38,398 nucleotides of DNA from positions 1 through 38,398 of the forward strand of contig NZ_CYPR01000161.1 in NCBI RefSeq assembly GCF_001408515.1. Reading direction: 5' to 3'. The position numbers were made by a program, and so were the translations under genes. Below the pieces are notes generated by a model. That model was given only the letters and a program-made list of their open reading frames with translations, was not told the DNA's origin and made no database searches. This DNA comes from Jannaschia seosinensis. GTDB taxonomy: Bacteria; Pseudomonadota; Alphaproteobacteria; Rhodobacterales; Rhodobacteraceae. Positions 668-17,954 of this stretch are shown here, in pieces; the first letter of the stretch is position 1, and each line of letters starts with the position of its first letter.

Positions 668-743
668 TGGTGCCCCCAGAGAGACTCGAACTCCCGACCT
701 ACTGATTACAAATCAGCCGCTCTACCAGCTGAGCTATAGGGGC
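668..743 (-). tRNA. tRNA-Thr(TGT), with encoded CCA
   Basis: The minus strand folds as a complete tRNA. The acceptor stem GCCCCTA pairs with TGGGGGC (one G-U pair). The D arm is AGCTCAGCTGGTAGAGC, the anticodon loop TTTGTAA has anticodon TGT, and the T arm contains GGTTCGAG-like GAGTTCGAGTC. The discriminator is A at 671 and CCA is encoded at 668-670. TGT decodes ACA and related threonine codons. The 5' end is only 8 bp from the stop of the permease gene on the same strand, so it may be read through from there. The integrase remnant at the 3' side suggests the tRNA 3' end is an attachment site. Confidence 0.97.
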
Positions 744-3414: not shown

Positions 3415-3693
3415 TCAGCTCATGCCGAGCGCTTCCTTGTACATCTCCAGCACGGCCTCTTCCTCGGCCACGTCATCCGGCTCCCGCTTGCGCAACGCGA
3501 CGACCTTGCGCATGACCTTGGTGTCGTAGCCCCGGCCATTGGCTTCGGCGAAGACTTCCTTCACCTGCTCGGCGATGTCCTTCTTCTCCTGCTCCAGCCG
3601 CTCGATCCGCTCGATGAACTGGCGCAGTTCGTCTGCGGTGACGCGATAGGTGTCGGCCGGGCCGTCGCCCTCGACCACGTGAAGATCTGCCAT
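3415..3693 (-). CDS. gapR: GapR-type nucleoid-associated protein (DUF2312)
   Basis: A 92-residue protein of the DUF2312 family, whose studied member is Caulobacter GapR. That protein is a small DNA-associated clamp that prefers overtwisted DNA ahead of replication and transcription and assists topoisomerases. Visible hallmarks are the helical core DELRQFIERIERLEQEKKDIAEQVKEVFAEAN, followed by GYDTKVMRKVVALRKRE and an acidic C-terminal helix. An upstream in-frame ATG exists at 3705, but GGAGG lies a few bases before the ATG at 3693, so the shorter start (MADLHVVEG) is chosen. It is a single gene, convergent with its left neighbour. Confidence 0.92.
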   Translation of the reverse strand: MADLHVVEGDGPADTYRVTADELRQFIERIERLEQEKKDIAEQVKEVFAEANGRGYDTKVMRKVVALRKREPDDVAEEEAVLEMYKEALGMS

Positions 3694-12732: not shown

Positions 12733-14568
12733 TTAGCCTTCGAACCACCACAGGTCGGGCTGAAACCCGATCCAGTCGCCGTAGATCGGCAGGCGGTCGG
12801 CCGGGTATTTCAGATCGGAATCATGCGCGATCCAGCTCACGAGGTTCCGCCAGACGGGGACGACGTAGCGCCCCGCGGTCAGAACCCGGTCCAGCGCCTT
12901 GACGGCTGCAACGTAATCCTCCTGCGTCTCGGAGGTCAGCATCGCCTCGATCATGGCGGCAATGGCCGGATCGCCCGCGCCCATCAGGTTACGGCTGCCG
13001 GGGGTGTCGACGCCCGCCGGGCCCCAGTAGGAATATTGTTCGTTGCCGGGGCTCAGCGACAGGCCCCATTCGGACCAGACCATGTCGAAATCGTAGGCAT
13101 TTGTGCGCTCCTTGAATTGCGCACTATCGACGGCGACGGCGCGGGCATCGATGCCCAGCCGGTCGAGCGCCTCGAGGTAGATATCCACGATCGACTGCAC
13201 CTCCGACGATCCGGTGGGCACGAGGATCTCGAGCGAGACCGGCCCGTTCGGCCCGACCAAGGCTCCGTTCTCGACATCGTAGCCCGCCTCGTCCAGCAAA
13301 CGCATCGCCGTGCGGAGGCCGCGCCGATTCGACAGCGTCCCGTCCGTCGCAGGCAGCTCGTACCCCTCCAATGTACCCGGCAGGCGTTCACCCGGCGCCG
13401 CGGCCAGAAGCTCCGCAACCCGCCCCTCGGCCGGCCCGGCACTCATCGCGAGCGGCGAGTTGTCGAAGTAGGACTCGATGCGCGGCTGCGCGCCATCATT
13501 GATGACGTTGTTGACGTATTCGTAGTTGAACGCGGTGATCAGCGCCTCGCGCACCCGCCAGTCCTTGAGGAAATCGCGGCGCGTGTTCATCACCAGCCCG
13601 ACCATCCCGGTCGGCCGCTGGTGCGGAATCTCCGACAGGACGACATCGCCCGCGCGGACAGCGGGAAAGTCGTAGTCCCGCGCCCAGGAGGTCGCGTTGG
13701 TTTCACGCATGCTGCTCAACTCGCCGGCCTTGAACGCCTCGAAGTGGGCGGTGGCATCGCCGAAGAACTCCATCCGGATCACGTCGACATTGTGCGTGCC
13801 CCGTCGGAACGGCAGATCCGCGCCCCAGTAATCCTCGTCGCGCATCAGCTCGACGTAACGGCCGGCATCGAAATCGCCAATGACGTAGGGCGCGCTGGAG
13901 ATCGGGACGTTGCGCAGGCCGGAGCGGAAGAACGCAGCCTCGTCCTCGGCATATTGCGCCTTTTTCATGATCGGGCGCAGGCCCGTCGTCATCAGCAATT
14001 CCCGGTCGGGCTCGGCAATAGTGAAGCGCACGCCGCGCTCGCCCACCGGCTCGACCGAAGTGACCTTGGCGAAGGATGCGCGGTAGCGGCCATTCGCACC
14101 CTCCTGGCCGAGGATGTTCCACGACCAGATGACATCCTCGACCGTGACGGGCGTGCCGTCCGAAAACCGCGCGTCCGGATGGATCGTGTAAGTGATCGCG
14201 GTCTCGTCGTCGTTCACCTCCACGCTGTCGGCCAGCAGGTTGTAGAGCGTGAAGGGCTCGTCCCAGGAGCGGCCCATGAGGCTTTCATAGGCGAGGAACC
14301 GCAACTGCCACGGCACGTTCCCCTGCAGGATATGTGGATTGAGACTGTCGAAACTGCCCACTTGGCCGTCCACGAAAGTACCGCCCTTGGGCGCGTCCGG
14401 ATTGGCCTGCGGCAGGTGGAAATAACCGGGCGGAAGCGCGGGATCCCCGTACAGGGCGATCCCGTGATTGTCCGCGCCGGCCGCCCCGGCGATGATTCCC
14501 GACGCGGCCAAAACGGCGGCCATCGCCGCGCGCCGACCCGAAAGGTTACGAAAACGATGAGTTCTCAT
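12733..14568 (-). CDS. Periplasmic peptide-binding protein, SBP family 5 (YejA-like)
   Basis: A 611-residue exported solute-binding protein. Residues 1-32 look like a signal peptide (RRAAMAAVLAASGIIAGAAGA). The mature part begins HGIALYGDPALPPGYFHLPQANPDAPKGG, the opening typical of YejA-like members (microcin C/oligopeptide uptake), followed by FDSLNPHILQG and the SDGTPVTVEDVIWSWNI motif of family 5. Partner permeases (YejB/YejE) and ATPase (YejF) are not in the window, so this is an orphan binding protein that must borrow a distant transporter. The gene ends at the hairpin pair at 12669-12721. Substrate is inferred only. Confidence 0.9.
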   Translation of the reverse strand: MRTHRFRNLSGRRAAMAAVLAASGIIAGAAGADNHGIALYGDPALPPGYFHLPQANPDAPKGGTFVDGQVGSFDSLNPHILQGNVPWQLRFLAYESLMGRSWDEPFTLYNLLADSVEVNDDETAITYTIHPDARFSDGTPVTVEDVIWSWNILGQEGANGRYRASFAKVTSVEPVGERGVRFTIAEPDRELLMTTGLRPIMKKAQYAEDEAAFFRSGLRNVPISSAPYVIGDFDAGRYVELMRDEDYWGADLPFRRGTHNVDVIRMEFFGDATAHFEAFKAGELSSMRETNATSWARDYDFPAVRAGDVVLSEIPHQRPTGMVGLVMNTRRDFLKDWRVREALITAFNYEYVNNVINDGAQPRIESYFDNSPLAMSAGPAEGRVAELLAAAPGERLPGTLEGYELPATDGTLSNRRGLRTAMRLLDEAGYDVENGALVGPNGPVSLEILVPTGSSEVQSIVDIYLEALDRLGIDARAVAVDSAQFKERTNAYDFDMVWSEWGLSLSPGNEQYSYWGPAGVDTPGSRNLMGAGDPAIAAMIEAMLTSETQEDYVAAVKALDRVLTAGRYVVPVWRNLVSWIAHDSDLKYPADRLPIYGDWIGFQPDLWWFEG

Positions 14569-14644
14569 TGTCTGCCCTGCCCTAAGATCCTGTTCACTTT
14601 ACCGTTTATCCTCGGCATCTCGGGCCCAATTCGTAAAGAAATGC

Positions 14645-14673
14645 TTGGACTCCGTGAAGGGGGAGGTTATAAC
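14645..14673 (+). promoter_or_regulatory. Sigma-70-type promoter for the candidate small RNA
   Basis: TTGGAC at 14645-14650 and TATAAC at 14668-14673 are separated by exactly 17 bases. This is the clearest sigma-70-like promoter I can see in the window. Transcription would begin near the A at 14680. No gene begins within the following 300 bases. Confidence 0.7.
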
Positions 14674-14679
14674 CACCTC

Positions 14680-14755
14680 ACTGCTCGATAGGTTTCTTGC
14701 CTGTATGAAACCTGCCTCATTGACTGGACGCCGGCCTTGCGCCGGCGTTTTTTTT
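14680..14755 (+). ncRNA. Candidate small RNA, about 76 nt
   Basis: An independent transcription unit is visible in the gap between the divergent binding-protein and bdhA genes. It has a good promoter (14645-14673), a 5' hairpin AGGTTTC / GAAACCT (14690-14696 with 14707-14713, 10-nt loop TTGCCTGTAT), a single-stranded linker CTGCCTCATTGACTGG-like, and a strong terminator (14728-14755). No frame with a ribosome binding site lies inside. This is the architecture of a trans-acting bacterial sRNA, with the loop and linker free for base pairing. I do not recognise it as a named sRNA. It could instead be a truncated leader, but no gene in the same direction begins before 15007, past the terminator. 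Confidence 0.6.
14728..14755 (+). terminator. Rho-independent terminator of the candidate small RNA
   Basis: An 8-bp stem ACGCCGGC / GCCGGCGT with loop CTTGC runs directly into eight T residues (14748-14755). It terminates transcription to the right, yet no protein gene ends upstream on this strand; the nearest one upstream (yejA-like) points the other way. Confidence 0.92.
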
Positions 14756-15006: not shown

Positions 15007-15780
15007 ATGTCCGTTGCGGGAAAGACCGCCGTCGTCACCGGGTCGAACTCGGGCATCGGCCTGGGGATCGCGCGCAGTTTCGCGGCGGCCGGAATGAAGG
15101 TCGTGCTGAACTCCTATACCGACCGGAAGGAAGATCATGCCCTCGCGGAGGAACTTGCCCGCGAGCACGGCACGGAGGTCCGCTACATCGCCGCGGATCT
15201 GTCCGACGGTGAAGCGGCCCGGCGGCTCGTCTCCGAGGCGGGATCCTGCGACGTGCTCGTCAACAATGCGGGCATCCAGCACGTCGCCGCCATCGACGAG
15301 TTTCCGACCGACAAGTGGAACGCGATCATCGCGATCAACATGTCTTCGGCCTTTCACACCACGGCCGTGGCCCTGCCGATGATGCGGGCGGCAGGCTGGG
15401 GCCGCGTCATCAACATCGCTTCGGCCCACGGCTTGACGGCCTCGCCCTACAAATCCGCCTATGTCGCCGCCAAGCACGGCGTCGTCGGGATGACCAAGGT
15501 CGTCGCCCTTGAGACGGCGGAGGAGCCGATCACCGCCAACGCCATCTGCCCCGGCTATGTCATGACCCCGCTGGTCGAGAGCCAGATCCCCGACACGATG
15601 CGCAAATACGACATGGACCGCGAGACGGCGGTCCGCGACGTTCTGCTCCAGCGGCAGCCCTCCAAGGAGTTCGCGACGACCGATCAGCTTGGCGGGACGG
15701 CGCTGTTTCTGTGCTCCGACCATGCGGCCCAGATCACCGGCACGACCATCAGCGTCGATGGCGGCTGGACCGCGCTATGA
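15007..15780 (+). CDS. bdhA: 3-hydroxybutyrate dehydrogenase
   Basis: A 257-residue short-chain dehydrogenase that interconverts (R)-3-hydroxybutyrate and acetoacetate with NAD, the step after polyhydroxybutyrate (PHB) depolymerisation. Visible: cofactor motif TGSNSGIG (11-18), NNAG (86-89), catalytic Ser139, Tyr152 and Lys156 (YVAAK), and the HBDH-specific run ITANAICPGYVMTPLVESQIPD plus a C-terminal ITGTTISVDGGWTA. Length fits the family. AGAGGAG precedes the ATG; upstream in-frame starts are rejected. Its stop overlaps the next gene by four bases, so it leads a three-gene operon with a pentapeptide-like protein and a patatin hydrolase. Confidence 0.95.
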   Translation: MSVAGKTAVVTGSNSGIGLGIARSFAAAGMKVVLNSYTDRKEDHALAEELAREHGTEVRYIAADLSDGEAARRLVSEAGSCDVLVNNAGIQHVAAIDEFPTDKWNAIIAINMSSAFHTTAVALPMMRAAGWGRVINIASAHGLTASPYKSAYVAAKHGVVGMTKVVALETAEEPITANAICPGYVMTPLVESQIPDTMRKYDMDRETAVRDVLLQRQPSKEFATTDQLGGTALFLCSDHAAQITGTTISVDGGWTAL

Positions 15781-16130
15781 GCGACCTGTTCGATCAATCC
15801 GACGCGCCGCAGGACAGCCCCGCGCCCGAAAAGCTGGAGGTCGCGGATCGGTTTCTCGACGGCTCCACCTTCACGCGGGTCTCGCTGCGCGACGCCGTGG
15901 TCGAGGACAGCATCCTGACCGCCGCGCGGATCGAGGACGTCAACGCCGAAGGCATCGCCTTTTCCGATTGCCGCCTTGCTCGTGCGACGTTTCGCGACGT
16001 GAACCTGACCGGGGCCGCGCTTCGGGACGTCAACCTGACGGGCGTGGAGATCGTGGATTCCGAGATCGACGGGATGACGATCGACGGGATCCCGGTGGCG
16101 GACCTGTTGGCGAGGTGGCGTGATGGCTGA
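15777..16130 (+). CDS. Pentapeptide-repeat-like small protein
   Basis: A 117-residue protein starting within the bdhA stop (ATGA overlap). After an acidic N-terminal stretch, residues about 30-100 follow a five-residue rhythm (FTRVSLRDAVVEDSILTAARIEDV, then ATFRDVNLTGAALRDVNLTGVEIVDSEIDG), typical of pentapeptide-repeat right-handed beta helices. Such helices commonly act as protein- or DNA-mimicking surfaces; no activity can be assigned. The stop overlaps the patatin start by eight bases, so production is coupled to both neighbours. Confidence 0.82.
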   Translation: MSDLFDQSDAPQDSPAPEKLEVADRFLDGSTFTRVSLRDAVVEDSILTAARIEDVNAEGIAFSDCRLARATFRDVNLTGAALRDVNLTGVEIVDSEIDGMTIDGIPVADLLARWRDG

Positions 16131-17139
16131 GCGCAAGCGCCTGAACCTCGCGTTGCAGGGCGGCGGCGCCCACGGCGCCTTCACCTGGGGAGCGCTCGAC
16201 GCGCTTCTGGCCGATCCCCGGATCGAGATCGCGGGCATTTCGGGAACGTCGGCCGGCGCGCTCAACGGTGCCGCGGTGAAATCGGGGCTGGCGCGCGGCT
16301 CCGCCGACCTCGCGCGCGAGGCCTTGGAGGATGTCTGGACCGCCATCGGGGCCCGGACCGAGTCGGAGCTTTCCGGCTGGCTCAACGCCATCTCGCCACT
16401 GGCGATCAGCCATGCGGTCGAATTGTCGCCGGGCTATCAGGCGGCGGACATGTTTTCGCGGTCTGTCTCGCCCTACGTGACCGGAAGCATCATGGAAGAA
16501 GCGTTCCGCAAGGTCGTCGCGGGCATGGATTTCGACGCCATCTGCTCGGAGGTCGGACCCGCCTTTCATATAAGCGCGACCAATGTCCGGACGGGCCGGA
16601 TCAAGCTGTTCACCCGCGAGGAGATCACGACCGACGCAATCCTCGCATCCGCTTGTCTACCTACGGTATTCCCGGCGGTCGAAATCGACGGGGAGCATTA
16701 CTGGGACGGCGGCTATACCGGCAATCCGGCGCTCTTTCCGCTGTTCGACGCGGCATTGCCGGACGATATCCTGATCGTGAACATCAACCCGCTCGAACGC
16801 CCCGAACTGCCGGTGACGGCGCGCGACATCCAGAACCGCATCAACGAGATCAGCTTCAACACCTCGCTCTTGCGGGAATTGCGCGCGATCGAGTTCGTCC
16901 AGCGCCTCGTGCACACGGGCAAGGTGCCGAAGGGCGCGATGAAGGCGGTCCTTATTCACATGATCTCCGACGACGTGCTGATGCGGCAGCTTTCGGTGGC
17001 GACCAAGACGGTGCCCAACCCAATCGTGATCCACCAGTTGCGCGCGGCCGGCCACGCCGCGGCGAAGGCCTTTCTCGACCGTGACTTCGATCGGATCGGC
17101 CGGGAATCGAGCGTGGATCTGCCGCAGATGTTCGCTTGA
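16123..17139 (+). CDS. Patatin-like phospholipase/acyl hydrolase
   Basis: A 338-residue patatin-family serine hydrolase. It has the oxyanion motif LQGGGAHGAF (11-20), the nucleophile elbow GTSAG with Ser43, and the dyad Asp195 in DGGYTG, so it should be active. The family removes acyl chains from lipids or related esters; no signal peptide is visible, implying a cytoplasmic enzyme. In the bdhA operon a role in mobilising stored PHB or membrane lipid to feed 3-hydroxybutyrate is plausible but inferred. The ATG at 16123 overlaps the previous stop; a GTG one codon earlier is the alternative. Confidence 0.93.
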   Translation: MAERKRLNLALQGGGAHGAFTWGALDALLADPRIEIAGISGTSAGALNGAAVKSGLARGSADLAREALEDVWTAIGARTESELSGWLNAISPLAISHAVELSPGYQAADMFSRSVSPYVTGSIMEEAFRKVVAGMDFDAICSEVGPAFHISATNVRTGRIKLFTREEITTDAILASACLPTVFPAVEIDGEHYWDGGYTGNPALFPLFDAALPDDILIVNINPLERPELPVTARDIQNRINEISFNTSLLRELRAIEFVQRLVHTGKVPKGAMKAVLIHMISDDVLMRQLSVATKTVPNPIVIHQLRAAGHAAAKAFLDRDFDRIGRESSVDLPQMFA

Positions 17140-17556: not shown

Positions 17557-17954
17557 AGGCGCTCCTCGCGGCCGTCGCGCTGACGCTCGCCTCGCCGGCT
17601 TCGGCCGACGGGGTTCTCGGGTTCGAGTACGACCCGGCCTATGCGTGGCTCTATGCGCCCGACACGACCGAACTCGGCGACGGGCGCGTGCGGATGGTCT
17701 TCGGCGACGGCCGTGCCGCGCTCCTGACACCGAACCAGTTCTGGTACTACGAGCAGATCTACAAGGAGGTCCTGGCGCAGCTTTCCTTCCGCATGCCGGT
17801 CCAGCAGGCCGTTCCGCGTGCGCAGCATGCAGCCCTCACGGCAATGGTCCGCGCCCACCCGACCCTCCGGGTGCAGGGTGCCGACATGGAGCCACTTACG
17901 GTGCCGCGCCTGCTGCCCCGCATCCCCGGCGTGACCGTCAGGCCAGGCTCGTAA
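17553..17954 (+). CDS. Secreted protein of unknown function
   Basis: A 133-residue protein with a clear signal peptide (KALLAAVALTLASPASA, cleaved near residue 19), then an aromatic-rich mature part (FEYDPAYAWLYAP, FWYYEQIYKEVLAQ). I recognise no family. It is translationally coupled to the CsbD-like gene by an ATGA overlap. Its last 17 bases overlap the convergent XRE-cupin gene. It is probably periplasmic. Confidence 0.75.
   Translation: MKALLAAVALTLASPASADGVLGFEYDPAYAWLYAPDTTELGDGRVRMVFGDGRAALLTPNQFWYYEQIYKEVLAQLSFRMPVQQAVPRAQHAALTAMVRAHPTLRVQGADMEPLTVPRLLPRIPGVTVRPGS

Follow-up and report, generated by a model that had tools for sequence, protein, structure and literature searches.

Organization of the locus

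The window analysed, that is, the whole stretch of 38,398 nucleotides of the genome of Jannaschia seosinensis (contig NZ_CYPR01000161.1, positions 1 to 38,398), carries a putative small RNA (sRNA) gene in a gap between two protein-coding genes. On one side lies a divergently oriented, yejA-like gene for an extracellular solute-binding protein (12733–14568, minus strand), recognized by PF00496 and by YejA structures, and on the other a bdhA-like gene for 3-hydroxybutyrate dehydrogenase (15007–15780, plus strand). The initial annotation, made from the sequence alone, had described this gap as one in which no gene begins in the direction of the sRNA, which is not quite right, since bdhA starts at 15007 on the same strand, past the terminator. 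A patatin-like phospholipase gene is located beyond bdhA (16120–17139, plus strand), and an ORF resembling it was seen by eye near the sRNA in three other stretches (L066, L078 and L085). The window also contains an ordinary tRNA-Thr (TGT) at 668–743 (minus strand).

The promoter proposed in the initial annotation was borne out: the −35 box TTGGAC (14645–14650, plus strand) and the −10 box TATAAC (14668–14673, plus strand) are present and separated by 17 nt. The place immediately upstream (14630–14644, plus strand) corresponds to an A/T-rich element that is degenerate in this species, where the window reads TTCGTAAAGAAATGC; the consensus of 116 relatives, at −50 to −36 above the promoter, is TTTCAAACTTTTAGC. 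The start of the sRNA was set at 14680 from the spacing of the boxes and the start of the conserved block, and its end at the T-run, which gives a gene at 14680–14755 (plus strand) with an expected transcript of 72–76 nt. From the expected start to the last T there are 76 nt, in agreement with the length of about 76 nt claimed beforehand. The predicted RNA has a 5′ hairpin (14690–14713, plus strand), read directly and supported by folding, in which AGGTTTC (14690–14696) and GAAACCT (14707–14713) form 7 bp (8 with a U-G pair) around the 10-nt loop TTGCCTGTAT (14697–14706), exactly as had been described. It ends in an intrinsic terminator (14728–14755, plus strand) detected by a terminator scan, with a stem at about 14728–14748 and eight Ts at 14748–14755, also where the first reading had placed it. 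The fold comprising the 5′ hairpin and the terminator was better than those of all 200 shuffled sequences (z = −3.53). The gene is present as a single copy in its own genome.

When the window was scanned on its own, no sigma-70 promoters were counted in the region (0.4 expected), and terminator-like sites stood at the shuffle mean (2 found vs. 2.1 expected). Since these single-sequence scans remain at the level of shuffled sequences, the case for the sRNA rests on comparison with other genomes.

Conservation in the family Rhodobacteraceae

A 32-nt core of the sRNA, searched with up to two mismatches, was found in 284 of 295 family genomes, each representing one genus; among the matches listed, three were seen with mismatches. 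The reversed control pattern gave no hits in the table of these 295 genomes. In our judgement, such retention is unusual for a bacterial base-pairing sRNA. Within a relatives set of 60 genomes, the sRNA was detected in all 36 genomes of the same family (J. seosinensis included) and in none of the 24 genomes of other families, and a 39-nt block was identical in all 30 loci returned (L001–L030) out of the 36 family loci. Exact copies of the 39-nt core occurred in at least 118 stretches of named genomes, affiliated to Rhodobacteraceae-type genera, to uncultured Rhodobacteraceae or Rhodobacterales, or to Alphaproteobacteria. This last scan took exact matches only, so the invariance of the core in those rows exists by construction; the searches of the relatives set and of the 295 genomes were not exact-match searches. 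The fuller alignment comprised 148 loci, and the sRNA alignment is clean enough to seed a model of a new RNA family.

The promoter is conserved as well. Counted from the base at which the conserved block starts, 116 upstream regions showed TTG at −35 to −33 (conservation 1.00, 0.90 and 0.97) and TATA at −12 to −9 (0.98, 0.99, 0.95 and 0.94), with a spacing of 17 nt in 92 of the 107 regions for which it was measured. The length to the end of the T-run was 74–77 nt in 110 of 117 measured relatives (118 in the set). The distance from the core to the terminator varies by single bases, and peptide coding was set aside by eye on this account.

Covariation was evaluated on 34 aligned rows that we selected from these loci, 32 of them distinct and one locus entered twice. 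All 480 pair cells were standard and no broken pair was observed. Six of the eight terminator pairs were changed on both sides among the 32 distinct sequences, and the terminator covariation score of 0.214 (0.057 when shuffled) was reached by none of 500 shuffles. Four of five covariation measures exceeded all 500 shuffles, while 44 of these attained the value of the fifth, further pair types. The 5′ helix was invariant in the 32 distinct sequences and therefore gives no covariation evidence for or against pairing.

The shuffle-level results of the single-sequence scans are what would be expected if the promoter and terminator were chance look-alikes in a GC-rich gap, or if the latter were merely the terminator of a neighbouring gene. 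This reading was already refuted by the occurrence of the core across the family, the conserved promoter and the covariation of the terminator, and its probability is negligible. It had been stated beforehand that an independent small RNA would be contradicted if close relatives had quickly lost both the hairpin and the promoter; the opposite was found, both being conserved, and the comparative data support an RNA with its own promoter and terminator. Comparison of genomes is decisive here: the element is a real and strongly conserved gene with a conserved promoter and terminator, and it is presumably transcribed in J. seosinensis.

The genomic neighbourhood is largely maintained. The yejA-like gene lies divergently within 600 nt of the sRNA in 103 of 108 evaluable records, and in 77 of 100 bdhA lies downstream on the sRNA strand at a distance of up to 600 nt (118 named records in both cases). 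The latter arrangement would suit an element that acts in cis on bdhA, as its leader or attenuator, and is no RNA of its own; however, in the remaining 23 evaluable records, all with the core, bdhA is missing or farther away. The terminator is maintained by compensatory changes, no conserved column was found just past it (17-row alignment, with 14 of the 30 loci, those on the minus strand, left out), and the conserved complement of the RNA sits in the mraZ leader. A role as bdhA leader is accordingly very improbable.

Complementarity to the dcw (mraZ) leader

The leader of mraZ was examined because StsR of Rhodobacter sphaeroides is reported, in the available portions of the sources, to pair with the sRNA UpsM and with the dcw leader (PMC8307010, PMC11354728, PMC8625941). 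In J. seosinensis this leader is located on another contig (G000:C23) and holds AATGAGGCAGGT-CAAA-ACAGGCAA, which is complementary, in the right order, to two blocks of the sRNA of 12 and 8 nt: ACCTGCCTCATT (block 2, 14710–14721, plus strand), a perfect complement of AATGAGGCAGGT, and TTGCCTGT in the hairpin loop (block 1, 14697–14704, plus strand), matched by direct comparison with ACAGGCAA. The 12-nt complement of block 2 was reached by none of 100 shuffled leaders. The target pairing guessed for the loop in the initial annotation therefore found computational confirmation, the loop and the 3′ arm of the stem both matching the dcw/mraZ leader. J. seosinensis carries a rare CATT variant that fits the mraZ leader of the species, and no covariation matching it was detected in the leaders of its neighbours.

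Of 37 family genomes, 18 had a perfect complement of 12 nt or more within the 600 nt ahead of mraZ, a length attained in only four of 3700 shuffled leaders; in seven mraZ leaders from other families the longest was 6–11 nt, with the 11-nt match in G044. Outside Jannaschia the complement is often 15–18 nt long (GCAGGTTTCATACAGGCA). Within this genus it is shorter and interrupted, with no more than 9 nt in 10 of the 20 genomes (J. seosinensis among the 20); G008 has only a 6-nt complement, its best duplex lying elsewhere than in the usual place, and G005 a 9-nt complement at another position. Two further family genomes, G027 and G033, showed complements of only 7 and 9 nt.

A first energy scan of long duplexes was uninformative, and 40-nt windows and exact complements were used instead. 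The windowed duplex energies overlap, from −24.6 to −36.7 in the family and from −22.5 to −29.9 in the seven control leaders; for G034 the energies were computed with the RNA of the window (its own has one mismatch) and the exact complements with its own RNA.

The distribution of the 15-nt complement AGGTTTCATACAGGC was also determined in the 295 genomes, one copy per genome being expected as the antisense of the sRNA gene itself. According to a hand count of the table, performed twice, 164 genomes had two or more exact copies, 123 had a single copy and 8 had none; one reversed-control hit was seen. In all 10 two-copy genomes examined (G020, G021, G022, G024, G025, G026, G028, G029, G031 and G032), the mraZ leader contains AGGTTTCATACAGGC.

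An own promoter and intrinsic terminator, a conserved pairing segment and a target elsewhere in the genome are, as computed here, the features of a trans-acting base-pairing sRNA. The idea that the sRNA acts on the dcw leader in the manner of StsR is well supported, though on purely computational grounds. As a separate observation, the region upstream of mraZ in G050, a genome of another family (L218), has GCGCAGGTTTACAGGCAC in its leader, similar to the pairing site of the family; the relatives-set search found no copy of the sRNA in G050, where a diverged one perhaps exists.

Position of the pairing site in UpsM

Genome G094 is very likely that of R. sphaeroides 2.4.1, and its pufL product is identical to what we take to be the R. 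sphaeroides sequence. Its sRNA gene is located at 1444 kb, its mraZ gene at 695 kb, and the sRNA homologue measures 68 nt to the T-run and 76 nt to its end. Besides the sRNA gene itself, just two complements of at least 12 nt were found in 1,997,800 strand-bases (1.04 Mb) searched, one of which is the mraZ leader. The second (ACAGGCAAGAAA; L292, about 17565–17576, plus strand) lies approximately 30 nt before an acyl-CoA dehydrogenase-like ORF and may be a further target in this genome.

According to the accessible part of its description, UpsM (RSs0682) is an sRNA produced in R. sphaeroides by premature termination of the dcw leader; it starts 268 nt before mraZ and is 206 nt long, with an RNase E 3′ product of 130 nt (PMC5089854). 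The sRNA described here would pair with it and is encoded at a separate locus, unlike UpsM, which is made from the dcw leader. In G094, the pairing site spans 18 nt, with a single mismatch and a perfect stretch of 12 nt, and corresponds to nt 54–71 of UpsM. From the published sizes, the RNase E cut was deduced to fall after nt 76, in CGC/UUUCAUCC, so that the site ends five bases before it; if the 3′ end of UpsM is instead placed farther downstream, the site occupies nt 50–67, nine bases from the cut. RNase E guided by an sRNA usually cuts a few bases beyond the sRNA duplex. In a simple fold of UpsM with the site blocked, the pairing of nt 73–79 hardly changed, and thus an opening of the cut region was not reproduced.

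Relationship with StsR and other small RNAs

The sRNA is either the known StsR or one with the same target. StsR is described, in the parts of the reports available, as an orphan, Hfq-associated sRNA of 72 nt that depends on RpoHI/RpoHII (PMC8307010, PMC11354728, PMC8625941), and under its old name RSs0827 as an RNA induced when iron is limiting and at a late stage of singlet-oxygen stress (PMC3413700, PMC3688512). The sRNA resembles it in its size of about 72 nt (68–76 nt in the R. sphaeroides-like homologue) with an own promoter and terminator, and in its computed complementarity to UpsM and the dcw 5′ leader. Its TTG and TAT boxes are compatible with the RpoHI/RpoHII motif, reported in the excerpt available as TTG at −35 and TAT at −12 (PMC10673084), although housekeeping promoters share them. 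We consider it rather probable that the sRNA is the orthologue of StsR, i.e., the Jannaschia copy.

The map position suggested by the number in the old name differs. RSs numbers appear to follow map order at the placed points of the R. sphaeroides-like genome, which are CcsR1 (presumably RSs0680) at 692 kb, mraZ with UpsM (RSs0682) at 695 kb, SorY (presumably RSs1543) at 1633 kb and SorX (presumably RSs2461) at 2598 kb. RSs0827 would then be expected at about 850 kb, vs. 1444 kb for the sRNA gene, which would be near number 1370; this estimate rests partly on the presumed numbers. The sRNA could accordingly be a second, unnamed RNA of the family, which targets the dcw/UpsM leader as StsR does but at a site of its own. 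StsR would then be a different gene, possibly that of a terminator-ended RNA at 858 kb (L259, about 3460–3540, plus strand), 12 nt of which are complementary to the leader close to the start of mraZ. However, the 858-kb element is placed directly behind an rlmB-like ORF, has no TAT box, and its leader match is not conserved (at most 11 nt in the other 43 leaders examined). A scan for other StsR candidates yielded seven elements in 1,039,000 bases, 40,100 of them N; in the 1.04 Mb covered, TTG/TAT boxes, a terminator and a 12-nt match to the leader came together in the sRNA gene alone. The stretches L261, L262 and L268 of the R. sphaeroides-like genome contain many N (7,000, 20,000 and 13,000 bases). 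The 72 nt of StsR also fit the sRNA gene. We regard a second RNA beside StsR as a tentative alternative.

A stronger form of this alternative, which is rather unlikely, holds that the dcw leader has had, since the ancestor of the family and throughout it, a partner sRNA that is unnamed and different from StsR. Nearly every genus keeps the core of this sRNA unchanged, and in Jannaschia the contact would have shifted from a continuous helix of 15–18 nt to one of two blocks. If true, it would imply that cell division in the family is controlled by an sRNA–leader pair under unusually strong selection.

Other landmarks did not help in placing StsR. It is stated to pair with the rpoE mRNA from 10 nt after the GTG, in the portion of the source available, and rpoE was not found in the examined stretches of the R. 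sphaeroides-like genome, where part of the expected region reads N. RSP_0829, a lactate dehydrogenase gene, was unhelpful as a map landmark, and the papers listed in a literature search for RSs13xx or RSs14xx numbers included nothing relevant. A text search of the literature with part of the core gave no match, and among the papers matched by short probes those listed had unrelated titles.

None of the Rfam 15 families attained its gathering score with the sRNA; SorX, Hrs13, suhB and others appeared only below threshold. SorX (RF02784) and SorY (RF02651) share the arrangement of 5′ hairpin, linker and terminator, but their scores were 24.6 bits (whole model, gathering 46.6) and 14.1 bits (gathering 111), respectively. 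The short alphaproteobacterial sRNA suhB/mmgR (RF00519) gave a weak whole-model score of 15.6 bits (gathering 41). The sRNA 'intergenic 134' of Paracoccus denitrificans, of 84 nt, appears in the accessible part of its report as conserved in R. sphaeroides, Jannaschia and others, the list also naming rhizobia, Streptomyces and Chloroflexus (PMC5107571). It may be the same sRNA, although the listing of these last three groups does not fit an RNA bound to one family.

Proposed function

The preferred explanation, which we consider likely, is that the locus encodes a conserved, independently transcribed base-pairing sRNA of the Rhodobacteraceae that pairs with the dcw leader and tunes cell division. 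The anatomy of the gene, its conservation and synteny, the complementarity to the leader and the location of the pairing site next to the deduced cut in UpsM were observed or computed; transcription in J. seosinensis, the sigma factor, the role of Hfq, the cleavage by RNase E and the effect on growth are inferred. The nearly invariant loop and 3′ stem arm of the 72–76 nt RNA would pair with the dcw (mraZ) leader, probably with the help of Hfq, and this pairing would alter the fold of the leader. RNase E may then cut just downstream of the pairing site, and dcw expression would be lowered under stress and in stationary phase, by which the sRNA probably tunes cell division. Given that the predicted partner is the leader of the cell-division operon, division may be under sRNA control throughout the family, and not just in the one species for which this has been described.

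In genome G060, the copy of the sRNA (C143:53856–53887) differs by a single base within the pairing block (GCCTGTTTGAAACC). The pairing site, together with this and other natural variants such as the Jannaschia leaders, makes the proposed pairing directly testable.
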